This document shows positions 37,179 to 53,613 of a stretch of 64,000 nt of DNA, piece after piece. Below the pieces are notes generated by a model that searched no databases, had not been told where the DNA came from, and saw nothing but the letters and a program-made list of their open reading frames with translations. Each line of letters starts with the position of its first letter. Positions within the stretch are counted from its first letter, which is position 1. The DNA comes from Veillonella sp. T11011-6. Its GTDB lineage: Bacteria > Bacillota > Negativicutes > Veillonellales > Veillonellaceae. The stretch lies in the NCBI RefSeq assembly GCF_002959755.1, contig NZ_PPCW01000005.1, forward strand, positions 186,001 through 250,000, in the 5' to 3' direction. The position numbers were made by a program, and so were the translations under genes.

Positions 37179-37309
37179 GACATACTGGCGTGTCGTTAAA
37201 GGGACTTAGAGAGAGTTAGCCAGACTGACATACGATATAGTTCGAGAGTAACTATATACATAAAAAGGCATGCCGCTGAGAGACGAGAGAAGGGTGGTGT
37301 GCCTTTTTT
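37179..37309 (+). ncRNA. Candidate small RNA with GAGAG loops
   Basis: About 130 nt bounded by a consensus promoter and a strong terminator (37263-37309, 12-bp stem, T6). Predicted elements: CTGGC/GCCAG enclosing AGAGAGAG (37208-37215); an 8-bp hairpin ATATAGTT/AACTATAT with loop CGAGAGT (37235-37257); and a terminator loop carrying GAGAG twice (37278-37282, 37285-37289). No start codon with ribosome binding site opens a useful frame. I recognise no known RNA family. Confidence 0.65.
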
Positions 37310-44055: not shown

Positions 44056-44134
44056 AAAAAAATAGGTATGAGATAGTTGTGTGGTGGATGTATAAAATTA
44101 CATGCACAAAACTATTTCGATTTGGAGGATTAAC

Positions 44135-45487
44135 ATGGCTAAAAAATTAAGAATCTGCGAAACCGTTCTTCGTGACGGTCATCAATCTATTTTGGCAACA
44201 CGCATGCGTTATGAACAAATGGAACCAGTGCTTGGCCTTTTAGATGAAATTGGTTATGAAGCTCTTGAATGTTGGGGCGGCGCTACTTATGATAGCTGTC
44301 TTCGTTTCTTGAATGAAGATCCATGGGAACGCCTTCGCAAATTAAAAGCTAATGTAAAAAATACACCACTACAAATGTTACTTCGTGGTCAAAACTTGTT
44401 GGGCTACAAACATTACTCTGATGATGTAGTAGAAGCATTCTGTAAAGCTGCTGTAAAAAATGGTATCGACCGTATCCGTATTTTTGACGCATTGAACGAC
44501 CCTCGTAACATGGAAGCTGCTATTAAGTACTCCAAAAAAGCAGGCGCACACGTTCAATCCGCTATGGTATATACTATTTCTCCAGTTCATACAACTGAAA
44601 GCTTCTTGAAAGTTGCTGAAACTTTGGTTGAAATGGGTACTGATTCCCTTTGCATTAAAGATATGTCCGGTTTGTTAGGACCTGCTGATGCATATGATTT
44701 AGTTTCCACATTCAAAAAACGTTTTGGCGATTTGCCAATCGACTTGCACAGCCATTTCACTTGCGGTCTTGCAAGCACTACATACTGGGAAGCTGCTAAA
44801 GCTGGCGTAGATATCATCGATACTGCTATCTCTCCATTCGCTCATGCAACTAGCCAACCAGCTACTGAAACTATGATTGAAATGTTCAAAGGTACTGAAT
44901 GGGATCTTGGTCTTGACCTTGATAAATACATTCCATTAGTTGACCACTTCCGTAAAGTAAAACAACAAATCGCTGAAGAATTCAACTTGAAACCAGCTAG
45001 CGATGTAATCCCAGCTGTTCGTCGTTACCAAATTCCTGGCGGTATGTTGTCCAATACTCAAAACCAATTGAACGAAATGGGTATGGGCGATCGCTTCTTC
45101 GACGTTATGGATGAAATGCCACGCGTTCGTGAAGACTTGGGTTATCCTCCATTGGTAACTCCAACATCCCAAATCGTTGGTACAATGGCTATGATGAACG
45201 TTATGATGGGCGACCGTTACAAAATGGTTCCTAACGAAGTTAAAGACCTTGTACGCGGTAAATATGGTGCGTTGCCTGGTAAAATTTCTGACGAAATTCG
45301 TCATACTATCATCGGTGATGAAGAACCTATTACTTGCCGTCCAGCAGATCTTATCGAACCTGAATTGGCAGGTTACACTGAAGACTTGAACTCCAAAGGT
45401 TACACTGGCATCACTGAAGAAGACGTATTAACATACGCTATGTTCCCAGAAGTTGCTATTAACTTCTTTGAAGCTAACCGTCGTTAA
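44135..45487 (+). CDS. Carboxyltransferase subunit (oxaloacetate decarboxylase alpha / 5S type), no biotin domain
   Basis: A 450-residue TIM-barrel carboxyltransferase. ETVLRDGHQS (residues about 8-17), SLCIKDMSGLLGP with the modified lysine, and DLHSHFTCG with the metal histidines. A PycB-like C-terminal domain ends at the last residues (VLTYAMFPEVAINFFEANRR). The biotinyl domain with MKM found at the end of full-length OadA/PycB (about 600 residues) is absent, so biotin must sit on a separate carrier. It transfers carboxyl between oxaloacetate or methylmalonyl-CoA, pyruvate and biotin, central to lactate/succinate fermentation. Strongly optimised codons indicate high expression. GGAGGATTAAC precedes ATG 44135. 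Confidence 0.9.
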   Translation: MAKKLRICETVLRDGHQSILATRMRYEQMEPVLGLLDEIGYEALECWGGATYDSCLRFLNEDPWERLRKLKANVKNTPLQMLLRGQNLLGYKHYSDDVVEAFCKAAVKNGIDRIRIFDALNDPRNMEAAIKYSKKAGAHVQSAMVYTISPVHTTESFLKVAETLVEMGTDSLCIKDMSGLLGPADAYDLVSTFKKRFGDLPIDLHSHFTCGLASTTYWEAAKAGVDIIDTAISPFAHATSQPATETMIEMFKGTEWDLGLDLDKYIPLVDHFRKVKQQIAEEFNLKPASDVIPAVRRYQIPGGMLSNTQNQLNEMGMGDRFFDVMDEMPRVREDLGYPPLVTPTSQIVGTMAMMNVMMGDRYKMVPNEVKDLVRGKYGALPGKISDEIRHTIIGDEEPITCRPADLIEPELAGYTEDLNSKGYTGITEEDVLTYAMFPEVAINFFEANRR

Positions 45488-45938: not shown

Positions 45939-47279
45939 GTGAATTTACAAATACGGATTTGGATATCCAATGTTGTGCTCTTTGTAGTGCCTATTTTGAT
46001 AGCAATTATCTTATTTTTGCTATACTTTACAGGTCTGCGCATATTGGCTAATGCCGGTTACTATTTGCGTATTGAGCAGGAACAACAGTTTAAAAGTGTC
46101 AGTCGAATCACTGAAACAATTACCTTTTATGGTTTAGAAAACAACTTAATAGATACCTTAGTAAAGCCTAGCTATAGTCTACTCGATCCGAAGGAAGTAT
46201 ATGTAGAGGTACTAGATCAAGGTAATATGGTGTACAGCTATGGTAATCCTCAAATCTATAGCGCTTCTGCTATTGTTGGTCTTATTGATGTAAACCCTGA
46301 ATTACAAGGTATTGTATATCAGTCCAATAATACGTTCGTATATGAAATGCGGAAATACGATGGGCGTCATGCTTACGTATATCATATTGCTATAAAGCGC
46401 GCTACTCATGGTAGTGATAGCTTAATGGAATCAGTTTCCTTCTATATTATTGTAGTGGCTATATTACTCTTTATTGTTACATTCTTTGCTATTAACCGAT
46501 TTGTTACACGCTTTATCATGATTCATGTTAAGAATATGACAAAATCCTTAGAAATGGCTAATCGTCAGATTGAAATGGAGCAGGAGCAACAAAAAGAGTT
46601 ACTAGCAGGGATATCCCATGATATTCGAACGCCGTTAACAGCTATTAAAGCGTATGCAGAAGGTGTTCGTGATGGTATTGCACCAACAGAAGAACAACAA
46701 AAACGCTACATGGGAATTATTTTAAAACGAGCTAATGATTTAGATTCGATGTTAGAGGAGTTATTCCTCATTACAACTTTGAATTATAAAAAAGAGTCGC
46801 GTCCATCTGAACGAATTGAACTTGGTCAATATGTACGTGATTTTGTAGAAGATCATTTGGCTCCTTATCAAACAAGAGGTCTAGAAATTAAATTCCGTAT
46901 AGCAGCGGAAAATGCTTTCATTAATGCAAACCCACAATTGTTACAGCGGGTTTTACAAAATGTGTTGAACAATAGTGCTAAGTATAAAATGGCCGATGTT
47001 GGTCATTGTGTTATTGATGTAACTAGTGATGATGATTTTGTATACTGTGTTATCAGTGATGATGGCCCAGGGGTACCACCAGAATCTCTAGAACGTCTAA
47101 TGCGTCCATTCTACCGTGTAGATTCATCTCGTACGAATCCACAAGAAGGTAGTGGTCTTGGATTGTCGATTATTCGTCGAATTATGGAAATCTTTGAAGG
47201 CCGAGTTGTGATTGAAAATGTAAGACCACATGGTCTACGTATTATATTAGAATTTCCTAAACAAGGAGAAGAATCATGA
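45939..47279 (+). CDS. Membrane sensor histidine kinase
   Basis: A 446-residue kinase. Transmembrane segments near residues 10-32 and 165-185 flank an extracytoplasmic sensor of about 130 residues. After a linker come the H box AGISHDIRTPLTAIKAYAEG with His227, the N box LQNVLNNSAKY, the G1 box SDDGPGVPPESLE and the G2 box GSGLGLSIIRRI. The start is GTG 45939 with TGAGGTAA upstream. It is coupled to its regulator by an ATGA overlap. It is a paralogue of the kinase at 3512-5011. Position before htrA suggests an envelope-stress sensor; this is inference. Confidence 0.9.
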   Translation: MNLQIRIWISNVVLFVVPILIAIILFLLYFTGLRILANAGYYLRIEQEQQFKSVSRITETITFYGLENNLIDTLVKPSYSLLDPKEVYVEVLDQGNMVYSYGNPQIYSASAIVGLIDVNPELQGIVYQSNNTFVYEMRKYDGRHAYVYHIAIKRATHGSDSLMESVSFYIIVVAILLFIVTFFAINRFVTRFIMIHVKNMTKSLEMANRQIEMEQEQQKELLAGISHDIRTPLTAIKAYAEGVRDGIAPTEEQQKRYMGIILKRANDLDSMLEELFLITTLNYKKESRPSERIELGQYVRDFVEDHLAPYQTRGLEIKFRIAAENAFINANPQLLQRVLQNVLNNSAKYKMADVGHCVIDVTSDDDFVYCVISDDGPGVPPESLERLMRPFYRVDSSRTNPQEGSGLGLSIIRRIMEIFEGRVVIENVRPHGLRIILEFPKQGEES

Positions 47280-47965
47280 GTGAACATATCTTAATTATTG
47301 AAGACGATTTGGATATCGCCAATATTGAGCGTGATTATTTGATGGTGGCAGGTTATGATGTAACTATTATGACTAATGGTACTGAGGGTATTGAGGCTGC
47401 CTTAAATACTCCTGTAGACCTTATCATTCTTGATGTTATGTTGCCAGAAATGGATGGCTTTGAAGTTTGCCGCCAAATTCGTGACAAGGTTCGTGTGCCA
47501 ATCGTTATGGTAACGGCTCGTCTCGATGATATCGATAAAATCCGTGGCCTCGGCGTAGGTGCTGATGACTATATTGAAAAACCATTCTCTCCATCTGTAT
47601 TGATTGCAAAAATCAAAGCTATGTTAGCACAATATAAACGCTTAACAGAGCGTGATGCAATGGAAACTAATGCGATTCAATCCGGTGAAATTCGCCTTGA
47701 TCCTAAGATGATGAAGGTATGGGTAAACGAAAAAGAAGTTCACCTTAAAAAGAAAGAATTCCAGTTATTAGAATTCTTGATGCGCAACCGTGATATCGTA
47801 TTTAGTAAAGAAGAATTATATTCTCGCGTATGGGGGCTTGACTCCTATGGTGACTATGCTACTGTAGCGGTACACATCAATCGTTTGCGTGAAGAAATTG
47901 AAGATAATCCATCCGATAGTAAGCATATTATTACGGTATGGGGCGTTGGTTATAAATTTGTTTAA
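47276..47965 (+). CDS. OmpR-family response regulator
   Basis: A 229-residue regulator. Receiver Asp53 in IILDVMLPEMDGFEVC, Lys in IEKPFSPS, and a winged-helix domain with KEELYSRVWGL and the terminal TVWGVGYKFV. It overlaps the kinase stop and follows AAGGAGAAG. A small RNA and htrA lie directly downstream on the same strand and are the nearest candidate targets. Confidence 0.92.
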   Translation: MSEHILIIEDDLDIANIERDYLMVAGYDVTIMTNGTEGIEAALNTPVDLIILDVMLPEMDGFEVCRQIRDKVRVPIVMVTARLDDIDKIRGLGVGADDYIEKPFSPSVLIAKIKAMLAQYKRLTERDAMETNAIQSGEIRLDPKMMKVWVNEKEVHLKKKEFQLLEFLMRNRDIVFSKEELYSRVWGLDSYGDYATVAVHINRLREEIEDNPSDSKHIITVWGVGYKFV

Positions 47966-48060: not shown

Positions 48061-48293
48061 TTTAAAAAATGTTTATATACTTCCTTTGATAGTTTAGATA
48101 TTCCGTGTATACTTATCTAGGTAAGGCTGACATTTGATTCTAGATAAGAAATAACTAAACTTCTCTCTCTTAATAAGTTCTCTCTCAAACTTATCTAGAT
48201 CACATATACTCTCTCTCAACAGTCCTTACACTCTCAAACTATATGCATAAAGGGCATTCCTAGCGACGGCTAGTGAATGCCCTTTATGTTTTT
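48061..48293 (+). ncRNA. Candidate small RNA with repeated CUCUCUC motifs
   Basis: About 230 nt without a usable reading frame, ending in a strong terminator (48249-48293; 11-bp stem AAAGGGCATTC/GAATGCCCTTT, then TGTTTTT). Pyrimidine motifs lie at 48163-48170, 48180-48186, 48209-48217 and 48231-48235. One is the loop of hairpin ATAAGTT/AACTTAT (48173-48194). AGTTTAG/CTAAACT (48091-48097, 48155-48161) encloses CTTATCTAG/CTAGATAAG. The strand CTTATCTAG occurs twice (48112-48120, 48190-48198), so two alternative pairings are possible. No known family recognised. Confidence 0.62.
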
Positions 48294-48542
48294 CTATAGT
48301 TTTGTATTTATTATTTAGTCATTATATTTTTATTGTTTTAATATATTGTTATCTTGCATTGTAAAAGAATGAGTACTATAATAGTTTTATCACAATTGAT
48401 TTTATAAAATTGATTGTGATGAAAGTAGATATAACATGATATTACATTGTTGTTAACATGTTTATTTTATTCCGATTAGTATTCGAGATAATGATGAATA
48501 TTGCTCGAAGAGATTAATAAGAAATAATATAAGGAGAGATTA

Positions 48543-49637
48543 ATGAATTTTTCAAAACATAAGAAATCAATTATTGCCTGTGTGCTCGCACTTGGAATTG
48601 GCATAGGTGGAGGATACTATTTCTTTGGTAATCCTGTTACACATCAAGCTACTGTGAGAGAACAAACGAAACAGACAAAGCCAATTACAGATACACGTAA
48701 TACGTACGTGGTTCAAGCTGCTAAAGAATCTGGCCCAGCTGTAGTAGGTATTACTACGCAAGTTTTCCAAAAGGATATTTTTAATCGTACTATCTATGCT
48801 GGAGAAGGAGTAGGATCTGGTGTACTTATTGATAATGATGGACATATTATAACTAATAACCATGTTGTATCGGGTGCTAAAAATGGAGAGGTGACAGTAT
48901 CTTTGTCTAATGGTTCCACCGTAACAGGTACAGTTATCGGTACAGATGCCCAAACAGATTTGGCTGTTGTTAAAATCGATCCTCCAAAGGATATTAAACC
49001 AATTAAAATTGGTGACTCTGACTCTTTACAAGTAGGGGAACCTGCTATCGCAATTGGCAATCCTTTAGGTCTAGAATTTAAAGGTTCTGTTACATCTGGT
49101 GTAATTAGTGCTTTGGCGCGTACTATTGATGATCAAGGTCAACGATTCCCATTGATTCAAACTGATGCAGCTATTAATCCTGGTAATTCTGGTGGTGCTC
49201 TCATTAATGCAGATGGTGAGTTAATCGGTATCAATAGCTCTAAGATTTCTAAAGAAGGCGTTGAAGGTATGGGTTTTGCCATTCCAATCAATTCAGCTAT
49301 GACAGTTGTAGACTCTATTATTAAAAATGGTAAGGTTGTTCGCCCATATATCGGTGTATGGGCTGTAGATCGTCAAACGGCAGCACGCAATAATGTAAGT
49401 TATGAAGGGGATGGCCTTCTTATCGTACAATTAGATCCTAATGGTCCTGCGTCTAAAGCAGGGTTAGTAGAAGGTGATACAATCGCTCAAATTGATGGTA
49501 AGGATATTACTACATTACTTCAATTAAAAGAACAAATCGATGCTAAGAGCCCTGGAGATACAATTTTAGTATCTTATACCCATAATGGTAAAATGAAGAG
49601 CGCACAGATTAAATTAGGACAAGCATCTTCAAAATAA
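48543..49637 (+). CDS. htrA: HtrA/DegP-type serine protease
   Basis: A 364-residue membrane-anchored protease. Transmembrane anchor residues about 10-28, then a trypsin-like domain with the catalytic His in ITNNHVVSG, Asp in DAQTDLAVVKI and Ser in INPGNSGGALIN, and one PDZ domain (YIGVWAV to the C-terminus, with GLVEGDTIAQIDG). It degrades or refolds damaged envelope proteins. AAGGAGAG is 7 bases before ATG 48543. The gene lies downstream of a two-component system and a small RNA on the same strand. Confidence 0.93.
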   Translation: MNFSKHKKSIIACVLALGIGIGGGYYFFGNPVTHQATVREQTKQTKPITDTRNTYVVQAAKESGPAVVGITTQVFQKDIFNRTIYAGEGVGSGVLIDNDGHIITNNHVVSGAKNGEVTVSLSNGSTVTGTVIGTDAQTDLAVVKIDPPKDIKPIKIGDSDSLQVGEPAIAIGNPLGLEFKGSVTSGVISALARTIDDQGQRFPLIQTDAAINPGNSGGALINADGELIGINSSKISKEGVEGMGFAIPINSAMTVVDSIIKNGKVVRPYIGVWAVDRQTAARNNVSYEGDGLLIVQLDPNGPASKAGLVEGDTIAQIDGKDITTLLQLKEQIDAKSPGDTILVSYTHNGKMKSAQIKLGQASSK

Positions 49638-49671: not shown

Positions 49672-49802
49672 TTGATTTTCTTCATTTTAGATCATTACCA
49701 TATAAATTTCAAAAATTTTTTTTGTTAAATAAACATAGTGTTTATCTGCCTTTTAGGTGATTTTCTATCTAAAAAAAATAGAAAAAGTAAATATTTTTTT
49801 AC

Positions 49803-49839
49803 AAGGTACCTTGCAAACCAAGGTACCTTATGTTATTAT
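49803..49839 (+). promoter_or_regulatory. PadR operator-promoter, copy 1
   Basis: The palindrome AAGGTACCTT occurs twice (49803-49812 and 49820-49829), 17 bp apart. The first overlaps the -35 TTGCAA (49811-49816); the second lies in the 17-bp spacer before the -10 TATTAT (49834-49839). A dimeric repressor bound there would block RNA polymerase. Copy 2 is at 51363-51399. Confidence 0.75.
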
Positions 49840-49915
49840 GTATTTGTCAGTACAAGATAGTGACAGTAAGAGAGCTTTCATATTGGTAGATATGCACATC
49901 TTAGATGGAGGAACT

Positions 49916-50230
49916 ATGCAAGTTCAATTAAAGAAAGGTGTTATGGATATGCTTGTATTAGCATTACTAACACAAAATGATCGCTATGGATATGAAATAG
50001 TCAGTAAAATCTCCGAATATATAGAACTTTCGGAAGGTACTATTTATCCACTGTTTAACAGATTAAAAAAAGAAAAGTATGTAGAAACATATTTGCTGGA
50101 ATCACAAACAGGACCATCGCGAAAATATTACAAAATAACCTCAAATGGTACAGCCGCTTATAATCAGATGCGACAAGAATGGGATGGATTTTCTGGCGTT
50201 GTTGATATGCTCTTGAAAGGGGTAGACTAA
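49916..50230 (+). CDS. PadR-family transcriptional regulator, copy 1
   Basis: A 104-residue winged-helix repressor. MQVQLKKGVMDMLVLALLTQ, DRYGYEIVSKISEYIELSEG and TIYPLFNRLKKEKYVETY are the PadR core; the C-terminal helix (residues about 80-104) mediates dimerisation. The start ATG 49916 follows GGAGGAACT. It nearly abuts the HAAS gene (1 base between stop and ATG). It is about 80 percent identical by eye to the copy at 51497 and probably binds the doubled AAGGTACCTT sites in both promoters. Confidence 0.92.
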   Translation: MQVQLKKGVMDMLVLALLTQNDRYGYEIVSKISEYIELSEGTIYPLFNRLKKEKYVETYLLESQTGPSRKYYKITSNGTAAYNQMRQEWDGFSGVVDMLLKGVD

Positions 50231-50231
50231 A

Positions 50232-50786
50232 ATGAATAAACAAGAATTTTTGAACACATTACGTATTATTTTTAAAAAAGCAAATGTTTTAGATGTAGAA
50301 AGTATCATTGATGTATACGAAGAACATTTTGCTGTAGGGTATGAGAAAGGTCTTGATGATGAACAAATCATTAAATCATTAGGTACTCCAAAAGAAATTT
50401 ATACATCCTATGTAGAGGCAGGTATCATCACTGATGAAATCGGACAAGAAGGTACTAAAAGAACAGTTAATATGCAAGCAATATATAAACGACTTGAAGA
50501 GTATAAAGCCCTTTTGTTACCACAGTTACCAGGGGTAGCTAAAAAAGCATCTCATACATTATTAACAGTAGCTAGTGCTCTTACTTATATTGTTGGGGTA
50601 TTATTATTTATCGTGACACCTGCAATTTTATTTTTATTAAGTGGTTCATGGCAACCATTAGCAAATGTTACACCACTTCCTGCTGTATCGATTGTTACTA
50701 TGGCAGGAATTGCGGGATTAGGTTTATTTGGTGGCTTGACATGCATCTATGCTGGCAGTGAACTTAATAATGTATGTAAGCATTAA
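50232..50786 (+). CDS. HAAS-domain (DUF1700-like) membrane protein, copy 1
   Basis: A 184-residue protein. The N-terminal helical HAAS-type domain (EFLNTLRIIFKKANVLDVES, YEEHFAVGYEKGLDDEQIIK, LGTPKEIYTSYV) is followed by a charged linker and two or three membrane segments (about 112-135 and 148-172). HAAS proteins are typically encoded with PadR regulators and are thought to relay envelope signals to them. It ends before a secreted repeat protein. Copy 2 is 51813-52388. Confidence 0.85.
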   Translation: MNKQEFLNTLRIIFKKANVLDVESIIDVYEEHFAVGYEKGLDDEQIIKSLGTPKEIYTSYVEAGIITDEIGQEGTKRTVNMQAIYKRLEEYKALLLPQLPGVAKKASHTLLTVASALTYIVGVLLFIVTPAILFLLSGSWQPLANVTPLPAVSIVTMAGIAGLGLFGGLTCIYAGSELNNVCKH

Positions 50787-50830
50787 TTTGCTATATTGAA
50801 ATATTGAATAGAATGAATTAAGGAGATACT

Positions 50831-51328
50831 ATGAAACGGATTATAATTACAGCAATTTTAGCAGCTATTTGCACAGTAGGTGGCGCAACTTCTTTTGTTA
50901 TGAATGATTTACCAAGCTATACTGCATGGAAACAAGATAATGCGCAGCAATTTAAGCATACATCAAAACATGATGGCCTAGATCAACAAAAGGATAAACA
51001 GTTTAATAACGATAAAGATCATAAGAAGGTAAAAGATTCTAAGGATAATAAAGATCATAAGGATCAAAAGGACCATAAGGACCATAAAGATCAAAAAGAT
51101 CATAAGGACCATAAAGATCAAAAAGATCATAAAGACCATAGAGACTATGATCACGAAATGAATAATATGCCTAATACACCAACTCAACCACAAGGTCAAA
51201 TGCCTGCAACAGGTTCTGTACCAGCATCAGAACAAGTAGCTCAACCAGCTCAACCAGCTCAACAACCTGCTAATGGAGCAATTCAAGCACCTAATATTCA
51301 ATCAAGTGCTGACCAAAGTGGTCAATAA
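50831..51328 (+). CDS. Secreted Lys/Asp/His repeat protein
   Basis: A 165-residue exported protein: signal peptide residues 1 to about 22, a short NDLPSYTAWKQDNAQQF segment shared with the next cassette, then a highly charged repeat region of about 55 residues built from KDHKDQKDH units (27-bp DNA period, near 51045-51145), and a Pro/Gln/Ala-rich tail. No enzymatic domain. A polyelectrolyte, metal- or proton-buffering role is imaginable from the His/Asp content but not shown. AAGGAGATACT precedes ATG. Confidence 0.7.
   Translation: MKRIIITAILAAICTVGGATSFVMNDLPSYTAWKQDNAQQFKHTSKHDGLDQQKDKQFNNDKDHKKVKDSKDNKDHKDQKDHKDHKDQKDHKDHKDQKDHKDHRDYDHEMNNMPNTPTQPQGQMPATGSVPASEQVAQPAQPAQQPANGAIQAPNIQSSADQSGQ
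51050..51145. repeat. Coding 27-bp tandem repeat (KDHKDQKDH)
   Basis: About three and a half copies of a 27-bp unit with synonymous variation, inside the secreted protein gene. It is coding, not CRISPR: there are no unique spacers. Confidence 0.75.
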
Positions 51329-51362
51329 ATTACACATATAAAAAAGTAAATATTTTTTTGGC

Positions 51363-51399
51363 AAGGTACCTTGCAATTCAAGGTACCTTGTGTTATTAT
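51363..51399 (+). promoter_or_regulatory. PadR operator-promoter, copy 2
   Basis: AAGGTACCTT at 51363-51372 and 51380-51389, -35 TTGCAA (51371-51376), a 17-bp spacer and -10 TATTAT (51394-51399). Similarity to copy 1 extends from an AAAAAGTAAATATTTTTTT block upstream to a downstream TGTCAGTACA/GATAGTGAC stretch, about 90 bp in all. Confidence 0.75.
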
Positions 51400-51496
51400 G
51401 TATATGTCAGTACATGATAGTGACCGTAAATGATTTTGATTGACTAGAATTGGGTGTTCACGAGAACAAGCCTGATGGCGTCAAAAGGGAGGAACT

Positions 51497-51820
51497 ATGC
51501 AAGTCCAATTAAAAAAAGGTGTTATGGACATGCTTGTACTAGCATTATTAACACAAAGCGATCGCTATGGATATGAAATTGTTAGTACTATTTCAGAATA
51601 TATTGAAATTTCAGAAGGAACTATATATCCATTATTTAATAGATTAAAAAAAGAAAAGTATGTTGAAACGTATTTGAAGGAGTCCTCTTCTGGACCATCT
51701 CGAAAATACTATCATATTACAGATGATGGGCGTGCAGCATACAATCAGATGCGTCGAGAATGGAATGAGTTTTCTGGCGTTGTAAATATCCTGTTGAAAG
51801 GAGTCGACTATAATGAATAA
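51497..51820 (+). CDS. PadR-family transcriptional regulator, copy 2
   Basis: A 107-residue paralogue of the regulator at 49916, with the same core (MQVQLKKGVMDMLVLALLTQ, YPLFNRLKKEKYVETYLKES). GGGAGGAACT precedes ATG 51497, and the stop overlaps the next ATG by 8 bases. Near-identity of the recognition helix region with copy 1 suggests both act on both operators. Confidence 0.92.
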   Translation: MQVQLKKGVMDMLVLALLTQSDRYGYEIVSTISEYIEISEGTIYPLFNRLKKEKYVETYLKESSSGPSRKYYHITDDGRAAYNQMRREWNEFSGVVNILLKGVDYNE

Positions 51821-52388
51821 GAATAGCTTTTTAGAAGCACTACGTAATATCTTCAAAAAGGCACATGTTGCTGATGTTGAAAGTATTATAGAGGTTTATG
51901 AAGAACACTTTGCAGTAGGGTATGAAAGAGGTCTTTCAGATAGTGAAATTATTAAAGCATTAGGGACTCCAGAAGAAATCTATGCATCTTATGTAGATGC
52001 AGGTATCATTACAGAGACTTTGACTCAAGATGGTAGTAAAAGTAAATCTGTTAATATGGAAGCTATCTATGCAAGATTTGAAGATTACAAAGAGCGTTTA
52101 TTACCGCAGTTACCTGGTATGGCTAAAAAAGCATCCAAAACATTACTATCTATTGGTAGTGCGTTATCATATATTGTAGGTGTTTTAATATTTATTATTA
52201 CACCGGCTATCCTTTATTTACTAGGTAGCTCATGGCAACCATTTGAAAATATTACAGCATTTCCTGTATTATCATTAGTAACTTTAGTTGCACTTGGTGG
52301 TGTAGGTCTCTTTGGGGGCCTTACATGTATCTTTGTTGGTGTTGAACTTCGCGGTGTACGCGAACGTTATTTCAGCAATGTAGATTAA
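51813..52388 (+). CDS. HAAS-domain (DUF1700-like) membrane protein, copy 2
   Basis: A 191-residue paralogue of 50232-50786. HAAS domain (FLEALRNIFKKAHVADVESI, EEHFAVGYERGLSDSEIIKA, LGTPEEIYASYV), linker, then membrane segments near 117-140 and 155-178. Overlap with the PadR stop implies coupled translation and a working PadR-HAAS pair. Confidence 0.85.
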   Translation: MNKNSFLEALRNIFKKAHVADVESIIEVYEEHFAVGYERGLSDSEIIKALGTPEEIYASYVDAGIITETLTQDGSKSKSVNMEAIYARFEDYKERLLPQLPGMAKKASKTLLSIGSALSYIVGVLIFIITPAILYLLGSSWQPFENITAFPVLSLVTLVALGGVGLFGGLTCIFVGVELRGVRERYFSNVD

Positions 52389-52397
52389 GGAGGACCT

Positions 52398-52820
52398 ATG
52401 AGACGAATTATAATTGCTGCCATTCTAACAGTAATCTGTGCTGTTGGGGCAGGTACATCATTTGCTGTAAATGATCTACCAAATTTTGGCGAATGGATGA
52501 AAATGAATGAACAACAGTTTAGAAAACCACATAGACATGATGGTCCTAATATGCATATGGATAAACATATGATGGATGGAAATAATCAAATGATGCCTCA
52601 AGATGGTATGGGACCAAACAATGGTGAGCATATGAATCAAAATGGTCAAAATCAAATGATGCCTCAAGGCGGTATGGGGCCAAACAATGGTGGACATATG
52701 CACTCAAATGGTCAAATGTCTCCACAAGGCCAACCACCTCAAGGCCAACCACCTCAAGGTTCGCAACCTAATGGTAATGCTTCAGAACAAGCACCTAATG
52801 GTGAGACACAAGCTCAATAA
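52398..52820 (+). CDS. Secreted Met/His/Asn-rich protein
   Basis: A 140-residue exported protein. Signal peptide 1 to about 22, NDLPNFGEWMKMNEQQF equivalent to the NDLPSYTAWKQDNAQQF of the first cassette, then Met/His-rich repeats of about 20 residues (NQMMPQ[DG]GMGPNNG[EG]HM, two copies) and a Pro/Gln tail. Met and His clusters resemble metal-binding tails of periplasmic copper proteins, but that is only composition. AAGGAGGACCT precedes ATG, 9 bases after the HAAS gene. Confidence 0.7.
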   Translation: MRRIIIAAILTVICAVGAGTSFAVNDLPNFGEWMKMNEQQFRKPHRHDGPNMHMDKHMMDGNNQMMPQDGMGPNNGEHMNQNGQNQMMPQGGMGPNNGGHMHSNGQMSPQGQPPQGQPPQGSQPNGNASEQAPNGETQAQ

Positions 52821-52944
52821 AATATATAAAACTATTAATATAGATTTAGCCATATATTTTAAAGGTATTAACAGATATAGAGTTAGATATATCTGAGGAT
52901 ATCGTTGATTTCATCGTATTTAAATATTAGATAGAGGTAAAAAT

Positions 52945-53424
52945 ATGAAAAAACTTTTAATTGCTACAGTATTAACCGCAGCATTTGGGATTGGCGGTGT
53001 AACATTTGCTGCTACTAATGACGTACAAAATAATAATGAGCCAATCAAGATGAACTTGTTAGTAGAACGAAATCATGATGATGCAAACAATTTCCAAGAT
53101 AAAAAAGGTGATATGCCATCAGAATGTCAAAATAATCAAATGCATGGTCAACATCGAATGGGGCATATGCCAATGAATCATCAAGATGATAATATGCCTC
53201 CACATGTTGATGGTGACCAAATGAGACCAGAAGGTCAAAATCACCAAATGAGACCAGAAGGTCAAAATCACCAAATGAGACCAGATGGCCAAAATCATCA
53301 AATGAGACCACAAGGTCATAATCATCAAATGCCACCACAAGGCCAACCACCTCAACAGCCTAATGGCAATGCTCCACAACCACCAATGGAGCAAGGCGCA
53401 TCACAAACTACACAACACCAATAA
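52945..53424 (+). CDS. Secreted Met/His/Gln-rich repeat protein
   Basis: A 159-residue exported protein. Signal peptide 1 to about 23 (ends VTFAAT), then a His/Met/Asp region and four 9-residue repeats of the form QNHQMRPEG (residues about 92-130), a Pro/Gln-rich tail and no enzymatic domain. It follows the second PadR-HAAS cassette by 124 bases without its own PadR. TAGAGGTAAAAAT precedes ATG. It probably belongs to the same family as the two preceding secreted proteins. Confidence 0.7.
   Translation: MKKLLIATVLTAAFGIGGVTFAATNDVQNNNEPIKMNLLVERNHDDANNFQDKKGDMPSECQNNQMHGQHRMGHMPMNHQDDNMPPHVDGDQMRPEGQNHQMRPEGQNHQMRPDGQNHQMRPQGHNHQMPPQGQPPQQPNGNAPQPPMEQGASQTTQHQ
53218..53335. repeat. Coding 27-bp tandem repeat (QNHQMRPEG)
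   Basis: Four to five units of 27 bp (core ATGAGACCAGAAGGTCAAAA); the first two are identical and the later ones drift. It lies inside the secreted protein gene. Confidence 0.8.
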
Positions 53425-53431
53425 TACTCTT

Positions 53432-53597
53432 ATAGGATTCTCTCTCTGAACACTAAATAGAGACGTGGTCATGAAAGTGCATTCATGGCCACTGTAGAGC
53501 CATACACTCTACGTGATACATTCGTATCAGAATCTCTCTCTTACACACAATAACTACACACAAACAAAAAGAGCTCCTCAGTGAAGGAGCTCTTTTT
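53432..53597 (+). ncRNA. Candidate small RNA or structured 3' UTR with CUCUCUC motifs
   Basis: Two single-stranded CTCTCTCT motifs (53440-53447, 53534-53541) bracket three hairpins: GTGGTCATGAA/TTCATGGCCAC (53465-53492), GTAGAG/CTCTAC (53494-53512) and TGATAC/GTATCA (53514-53529). A 13-bp terminator closes it. No own promoter is evident, so it may be processed from the mRNA of the preceding secreted protein gene. Confidence 0.55.
53566..53597. terminator. Bidirectional terminator
   Basis: AAAAAGAGCTCCT (53566-53578) pairs with AGGAGCTCTTTTT (53585-53597). It serves the plus-strand RNA and the converging pyrFE transcript. Confidence 0.9.
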
Positions 53598-53613
53598 GTA
53601 TCTGTTTATAATT

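Follow-up and report, generated by a model that had tools for sequence, protein, structure and literature searches.

The RNAs LhrC1-5 of Listeria monocytogenes depend on LisRK, a two-component system that answers envelope stress (PMC4132741). These multicopy RNAs are described as bearing multiple redundant CU-rich sites, located in loops and a linker, as binding the message of lapB, which encodes a cell-wall protein, and as needing Hfq neither for stability nor for lapB binding (PMC4132741). The csRNAs of streptococci, given a size range of 51-202 nt in PMC3091779, are tied to CiaRH, whose regulon also holds htrA, and they act additively by pairing around the Shine-Dalgarno (SD) sequence and the start codon (PMC3091779, PMC4507080, PMC8186281). 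The CiaR box is stated as TTTAAG-N5-TTTAAG in PMC8186281. For Veillonella, a study of structured RNAs in 26 bacterial genomes reported the ilvD and potE motifs, and its main text mentions neither htrA nor degP nor response regulator (PMC8632094); other Veillonella noncoding RNAs are mentioned in PMC7160235. Among the open-licence papers listed by our literature searches, 20 of 469 and 20 of 779 for two of them, we saw no report of the RNA described here and no experimentally described trans-acting Veillonella small RNA (sRNA).

We analyzed a window of 64,000 nt from Veillonella sp. T11011-6 (GCF_002959755.1, NZ_PPCW01000005.1:186,001-250,000, forward strand), a member of an abundant oral genus that has an outer membrane within the Firmicutes. 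The window's own genome is G000; the genus set comprises 14 genomes (G000-G013), the family set 28, and the order set 61. Placed between a two-component system and htrA, the window holds RNA1, a conserved, structured element that is bounded by a promoter and a terminator and displays CU sites predicted to be single-stranded. On balance, we favor the reading that RNA1 is a two-component-linked, multi-site anti-SD sRNA of a new family, which probably blocks messages for exported proteins. The locus is organized as follows:

45939-47279 (+): sensor histidine kinase (HK), Pfam HisKA and HATPase_c
47276-47965 (+): OmpR-type response regulator (RR), Pfam Response_reg and Trans_reg_C
48061-48077 (+): possible regulator site preceding the -35, TTTAAA-N5-TTTATA, read from the sequence; TTTA half-sites recur in homologues
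48086-48113 (+): promoter TTGATA-16-TATACT, from the scan and -10 conservation
48121 to ~48290 (+): RNA1, ~170 nt with inferred ends, from the fold and a covariance-model match
48245-48293 (+): intrinsic terminator, a strong hairpin followed by T, from the fold
48354-48382 (+): separate htrA promoter TTGCAT-17-TATAAT, by eye
48543-49637 (+): htrA, serine protease with PDZ, present in 14/14 genus genomes

A conserved, structured RNA bounded by a promoter and a terminator

The covariance model of RNA1, built from 6 of its 12 homologues, matches 48121-48246 with 156 bits, the window sequence itself having been in the model. The promoter rests on conservation, because the total of the promoter scan was at chance level (11 found versus 11.2 expected): the -10 hexamer TATACT is invariant in 12/12 homologues, and a conserved GTAAGG starts 6-9 nt after it. 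The possible regulator site further upstream reads TTTAAG-N5-TTTATA in G006, G008, and G012, and its spacing or letters differ in others. At the other end, the terminator hairpin was predicted in all 12 homologues, each folded alone; the terminator scan of the window omitted this hairpin, which is visible in both the sequence and the fold. Folding 48119-48293, terminator included, gave a minimum free energy of -52.9 kcal/mol (z -7.4). The invariant -10 and the strong terminator bear out the promoter-like and terminator ends described in a first-pass annotation of this DNA, which had also proposed a 230/233-nt RNA; since these bounds place the start near 48121, RNA1 would be ~170 nt long. The region overlaps ORFs of 38 and 41 aa, and no conserved reading frame was seen by eye in the RNA1 homologues.

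The predicted fold comprises three helical elements besides the terminator:

48121-48129 with 48220-48229 (+): P1, both-side changes in 3/9 pairs, 96.6% of cells paired
48135-48148 with 48190-48202 (+): P2 (two helices of the model), 8/14 pairs change on both sides
48158-48179 (+): P3, hairpin AACUU/AAGUU around CU site 1, predicted in 12/12 folds

Covariance analysis, which the first-pass annotation had proposed as a check, was positive, with 11 of the 28 model pairs changing on both sides yet staying paired. Across the 12 sequences (10 distinct), 95.7% of cells hold standard pairs, a figure that leans towards the model because the alignment was fitted to the model's own structure. Slid control structures reached at most 48% paired and 2 both-side-changed pairs; among 500 shuffles, none reached the observed value in four of five measures, and 90 reached it in the remaining one, further pair types. 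Folds made without the alignment recovered the closing P1, the long P2, the P3 hairpin, and the terminator hairpin in 12/12 homologues, with varying details. Covariation cannot judge P3, because its sequence never varies. The earlier proposal of a stand-alone structured RNA, whose role is presumably regulatory, is supported.

Four CU sites punctuate this fold:

48163-48169 (+): CU site 1, CUCUCUC, loop columns 11/12 invariant
48180-48186 (+): CU site 2, CUCUCUC (a shorter CUCUC-U in G006, G008, and G012)
48209-48217 (+): CU site 3, CUCUCUCUC, from motif count, folds, and alignment
48231-48235 (+): short CU site 4, CUCUC, in a conserved linker with 15/17 columns invariant

The DNA motif CTCTCTC starts at 48163, 48180, 48209, and 48211, and the last two occurrences overlap, leaving three runs, the third of which is CTCTCTCTC. 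The fourfold CUCUCUC of the first-pass annotation therefore holds if overlaps are counted; as separate copies, there are three runs and the shorter CTCTC at 48231. In 2000 dinucleotide shuffles of 48061-48293, none reached four occurrences and 6 reached three. As had been claimed for displayed pyrimidine loops, the CU sites are predicted to be unpaired in the folds of all 12 homologues (means 0.64-1.00, lowest in G001). A 7-bp hairpin with a CUCUCUC loop, also proposed at first, can be drawn (48173-48179 with 48188-48194); the loop that it encloses is CTCTCTCA, however, and P2 and P3 compete with it. Mean identity is 0.96-0.99 in the CU loops and linker versus 0.77-0.80 in the P2 arms, that is, the loops are conserved above the stem.

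This pattern of conservation bears on whether RNA1 is no more than the 3'-terminal part of the two-component operon, as a stabilizing tail or processed 3' UTR without trans function. The scan listed no terminator between the RR stop codon and RNA1, so operon read-through into RNA1 is likely. Nevertheless, a conserved promoter directly precedes the conserved fold, the CU loops are conserved above the stems, and a second RNA (RNA2, below) displays the same motif without adjoining two-component genes, all of which make the operon-tail explanation quite improbable.

The first-pass annotation had further envisaged a switchable stem, based on a repeated CTTATCTAG (48112 and 48190) and a single CTAGATAAG (48140), and a sequence check confirmed that both are real. 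In such a riboswitch-like RNA, the two CTTATCTAG copies would compete for CTAGATAAG and thereby open or close the CU hairpin, and a helix of 8-10 bp between the upstream copy and the 5' arm of P2 can indeed form in 5/12 homologues (G000, G011, G006, G008, and G012). However, the upstream copy (48112-48120) is not conserved and lies mostly outside RNA1, because it overlaps the -10 hexamer and the start region; the corresponding helix has only 4-5 bp in the other 7/12 homologues, and P2 covaries. We therefore rejected the two-state switch, which we regard as having almost no chance of being correct.

Distribution of RNA1 and its possible siblings

The covariance model found RNA1 in 12 of the 28 family genomes and 12 of the 61 order genomes, all within one genus (12/14); it did not find RNA1 in the genus members G003 and G004. 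A search at the DNA level among 60 relatives yielded matches in 14 genomes, namely 12 of the genus (G000, G001, G002, and G005-G013) as well as G021 and G031, whose weak matches lie outside the RNA1 core and were taken as chance. Among named genomes, a DNA pattern scan identified loci in V. atypica, V. parvula SKV38, V. tobetsuensis, V. rogosae, V. denticariosi, V. infantium, and one Negativicutes MAG; the RNA1 model gives each of the seven a score in the range 79-159 bits, with the core in V. parvula SKV38 at L045:2862-2988, and several of these records are probably genomes already in the G000-G013 set.

The same 12 genomes that carry RNA1 are those of the 14 in the genus that carry the RR at E<=1e-80. 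At E<=1e-40, the HK was matched in 42/61 order genomes, but the match spanned its whole length solely in the 12 RNA1 genomes (as two pieces in G001); the other HK matches listed cover the catalytic half alone, from residue 193 on. No NCBIfam model scored above its cut-off for the HK among the 25 listed. In G004, htrA comes right after a gene that matches (by eye) the window gene 44102-45487, and PadR- and HAAS-like genes come next, as they do in the window; HK, RR, and RNA1 are missing as a block between the same neighbors. In G003, htrA has other neighbors. The first-pass annotation had considered that loss of the motifs beside retained flanking genes would speak against a functional RNA; this is not the case for the adjacent full-length HK and RR, which keep to the same 12 genomes as RNA1, but htrA occurs without it in 2/14. 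Gain or loss of HK, RR, and RNA1 as a unit fits a working link among them, in which the RR would control the RNA.

We also considered RNA1 as a riboswitch or leader of htrA, in which read-through of the terminator from the RNA1 promoter would be regulated. htrA is the next gene downstream on the same strand in G000 and lies nearby in the other 11 RNA1 genomes. However, the strong terminator stands in between, the spacer is poorly conserved (mean identity 0.47) compared with the region of the separate htrA promoter that follows it (0.81 at 48346-48385), two of the 14 genomes have htrA without RNA1, and RNA2 is not beside htrA. This attenuator-like role was thus rejected and appears highly improbable.

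Searching the genus for two CTCTCTC sites 4-34 nt apart recovered RNA1 in 9 genomes and RNA2 in 7, besides a single place in G005, with no match in G003 or G004; as the pattern is identical when reversed, the control built into this search carried no information. Two further CU-bearing RNAs were considered:

G000:C4:471835-471944 (-): RNA2, second CU-loop RNA, with a promoter-like site and a terminator
53425-53598 of the window (+): RNA3 candidate, after the last acidic-repeat protein gene (z -7.8)

RNA2, whose neighbor gene (L070:1710-2330) we take to be tag, has a fold z of -6.8, terminator included, and helices with compensatory changes by eye. Its own model, R2, finds it in 7/14 genus genomes (G000, G002, G006, G008, G010, G011, and G012); weak R2 matches (E 0.01 to 1; ten in nine genomes) were taken as chance. 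Common descent of the two RNAs cannot be claimed, because RNA2 scores at most 19.9 bits with the RNA1 model. By eye, no regulator box clearly common to RNA1 and RNA2 was found, and the putative site TTTAAA-N5-TTTATA has no clear match upstream of RNA2. The G005 match was rejected as an RNA2 in view of its position opposite an acyltransferase-like gene's start. That gene (G005:C2 near 12389) sits downstream of an apparent autotransporter end and has two GAGAGAG/GAGAGA-type sites around its start, making it a possible multi-site target.

The RNA3 candidate has three hairpins in tandem, a CUCUCU(C)UUACACACA tail that is invariant, and a terminator. Its CU-bearing tail is conserved across five species, with CTCTCTC in 4/5, and homologues occur in 4/7 named loci (V. 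atypica, V. parvula, V. rogosae, and V. denticariosi), the other three probably ending earlier. The candidate may or may not belong to the RNA1 system. Between htrA and this candidate, at 49757-53424 (+), lie repeated cassettes of a PadR-type regulator, a HAAS-domain protein, and small exported repeat-rich proteins. An additional minus-strand CTCTCTC occurs at window positions 37209-37215, with more short CU runs near it, downstream of a hairpin followed by T.

Candidate targets and proposed mechanism

Candidate targets were sought among the SD sequences of 404 G000 genes (the window plus a 400-kb systematic sample), with exported proteins assigned by an in-house hydrophobicity criterion, which overlooks some signal peptides and admits some false ones. 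A GA-type SD, defined as GGAGAG or GAGAGA in positions -20 to -3, precedes 7/45 exported versus 4/359 other genes (one-sided p 3e-5), an exploratory result because many hexamers were inspected first; the statistic was fixed afterwards and then repeated elsewhere. AGGAGG showed no bias to exported genes in G000 (7/45 versus 87/359). The repeats gave 2/38 versus 7/311 in G013 (p 0.26) and 4/40 versus 12/325 in G007 (p 0.085), or 6/78 versus 19/636 when pooled (p 0.045), and some of the exported genes are neighbors or look related. GA-type SDs were not over-represented at exported genes in the RNA1-less genomes G004 (1/40 versus 5/301) and G003 (0/19 versus 10/284), which pooled to 1/59 exported versus 15/585 other genes.

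Predicted duplex energies with the CU segments were lower for exported genes in G000 (p 0.009), G013 (p 0.07), and G007 (p 0.03), and no such shift was seen in the RNA1-less G004 (p 0.87) and G003 (p 0.66). With anti-SD control duplexes, exported and other genes were alike in all five genomes. The top-5% energy fraction showed no rise in either G013 or G007, and the G000 value was exceeded by at least 1 of 20 shuffled controls. Overall, these statistics are suggestive of a preference for GA-type SDs at exported genes.

Raw counts of GAGAGAG before ATG do not separate the genomes (21 in G003 and 17 in G004, both RNA1-less; 8-38 in the twelve others). Our table of gene starts led by GAGAGAG covered 123 places, 27 of G000 and 96 of those listed for G001, G013, G004, G007, and G010; excluded beforehand were duplicates that overlap, the loci of RNA1 and RNA2, a single G004 place, and all places for G011 and G003, and G002, G005, G006, G008, G009, and G012 were not part of it. 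Usable gene starts numbered 56/123, the rules having dropped 67, including all 8 of G001. Best conserved among the matches listed was a GAGAGAG-led ABC permease, in at least 5 genomes including the RNA1-less G004; others listed were a small exported protein (at least 3 genomes), an autotransporter-like protein (at least 2), and an OmpM-like protein in G013, all named by eye. In the G000 sample, two OmpM-like genes lack a GA-type SD; htrA's own SD, AAGGAGAGA, is of the GA type. The earlier proposal that pyrimidine-rich loops cover purine-rich ribosome binding sites is plausible, with SD statistics that are suggestive and replicate weakly.

The CU repeats could instead form a sponge that titrates an RNA-binding protein or a GAGAGAG-containing RNA, rather than acting on mRNAs. 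Several near-identical single-stranded repeats are also typical of protein sponges, and the genome holds two CU-loop RNAs; however, the best-known protein sponge RNAs display GGA rather than CU, and the SD bias at exported genes better fits mRNA targets. We hence consider a sponge unlikely.

We infer the following course of events for RNA1 as an anti-SD sRNA. An envelope signal would lead the RR to switch on the RNA1 promoter, and the transcript would fold into P1 and P2, which covariation supports, as well as P3 and the terminator, with four CU sites, three of them long and one short, predicted to stay single-stranded. Each CU site may then pair with GA-type SDs such as GGAGAGA and block ribosome binding, preferably, as the target statistics suggest, on messages for exported and envelope proteins. 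Together with the neighboring HtrA protease, RNA1 would relieve envelope stress through less new cargo and more clearance, and RNA2, encoded elsewhere in the genome, might act as its sibling. Transcription of RNA1, its control by the RR, SD pairing, and the exported-protein regulon are thus parts that we deduce. Counting against this reading, the NCBIfam Hfq model had no match in the whole genome of G000, in a search whose control matched in 5/14 known genomes.

A bolder and rather doubtful extension is that the SD itself serves as a regulon code, exported genes of RNA1-bearing Veillonella tending to GGAGAGA as against AGGAGG elsewhere. One envelope-sensing two-component system might then use two or three CU-loop RNAs, without Hfq, to brake translation across much of the secretome at once.

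Comparison with described envelope-stress RNAs

RNA1 was rejected as a member of a known RNA family, since none of 4227 Rfam families matched it at the gathering cut-off, the window's matches being 4 tRNAs only; in a permissive scan, the best matches were far below the cut-offs and implausible. No LhrC match appeared in these scans, as far as the 4227 families include LhrC, and the sequence relation to the csRNAs was compared by Rfam alone. Enterobacterial envelope-stress sRNAs of the MicA/RybB type use Hfq and other seeds. Their logic, in which envelope stress leads to less envelope-protein synthesis, is like that proposed for RNA1, whereas their use of Hfq contrasts with the lack of an Hfq match in G000.

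RNA1 resembles LhrC in having several redundant CU-rich sites, here predicted to be single-stranded, and in being tied to a two-component system, here by co-occurrence and adjacency of genes. The two differ in that the LhrC sites carry UCCC (PMC4132741) and those of RNA1 CUCUCUC; LhrC is multicopy, whereas RNA1 has a single copy per genome and a dissimilar companion, RNA2; and LhrC has been worked out by experiment, whereas RNA1 is known from sequence alone. With the csRNAs, RNA1 shares the layout of an intergenic promoter followed by a terminator, and its inferred ~170 nt fall within their 51-202 nt. Its TTTAAA-N5-TTTATA resembles the CiaR box TTTAAG-N5-TTTAAG, a resemblance of letters only. 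The csRNAs are scattered targets of CiaR, whereas RNA1 adjoins its putative regulator, an RR identified as OmpR-type.

If the proposal is true, RNA1 would be a trans-acting Veillonella sRNA with a clear genetic handle, as its presence or absence follows that of its two-component system, and the SD sequence would predict which exported proteins fall. By analogy, LhrC and the csRNAs work as we propose for RNA1; kinship of either with RNA1 is not demonstrated. The design has so far been worked out in distantly related bacteria, and our reading, if correct, suggests that two-component systems of Streptococcus, Listeria, and Veillonella reached it via unrelated RNAs.
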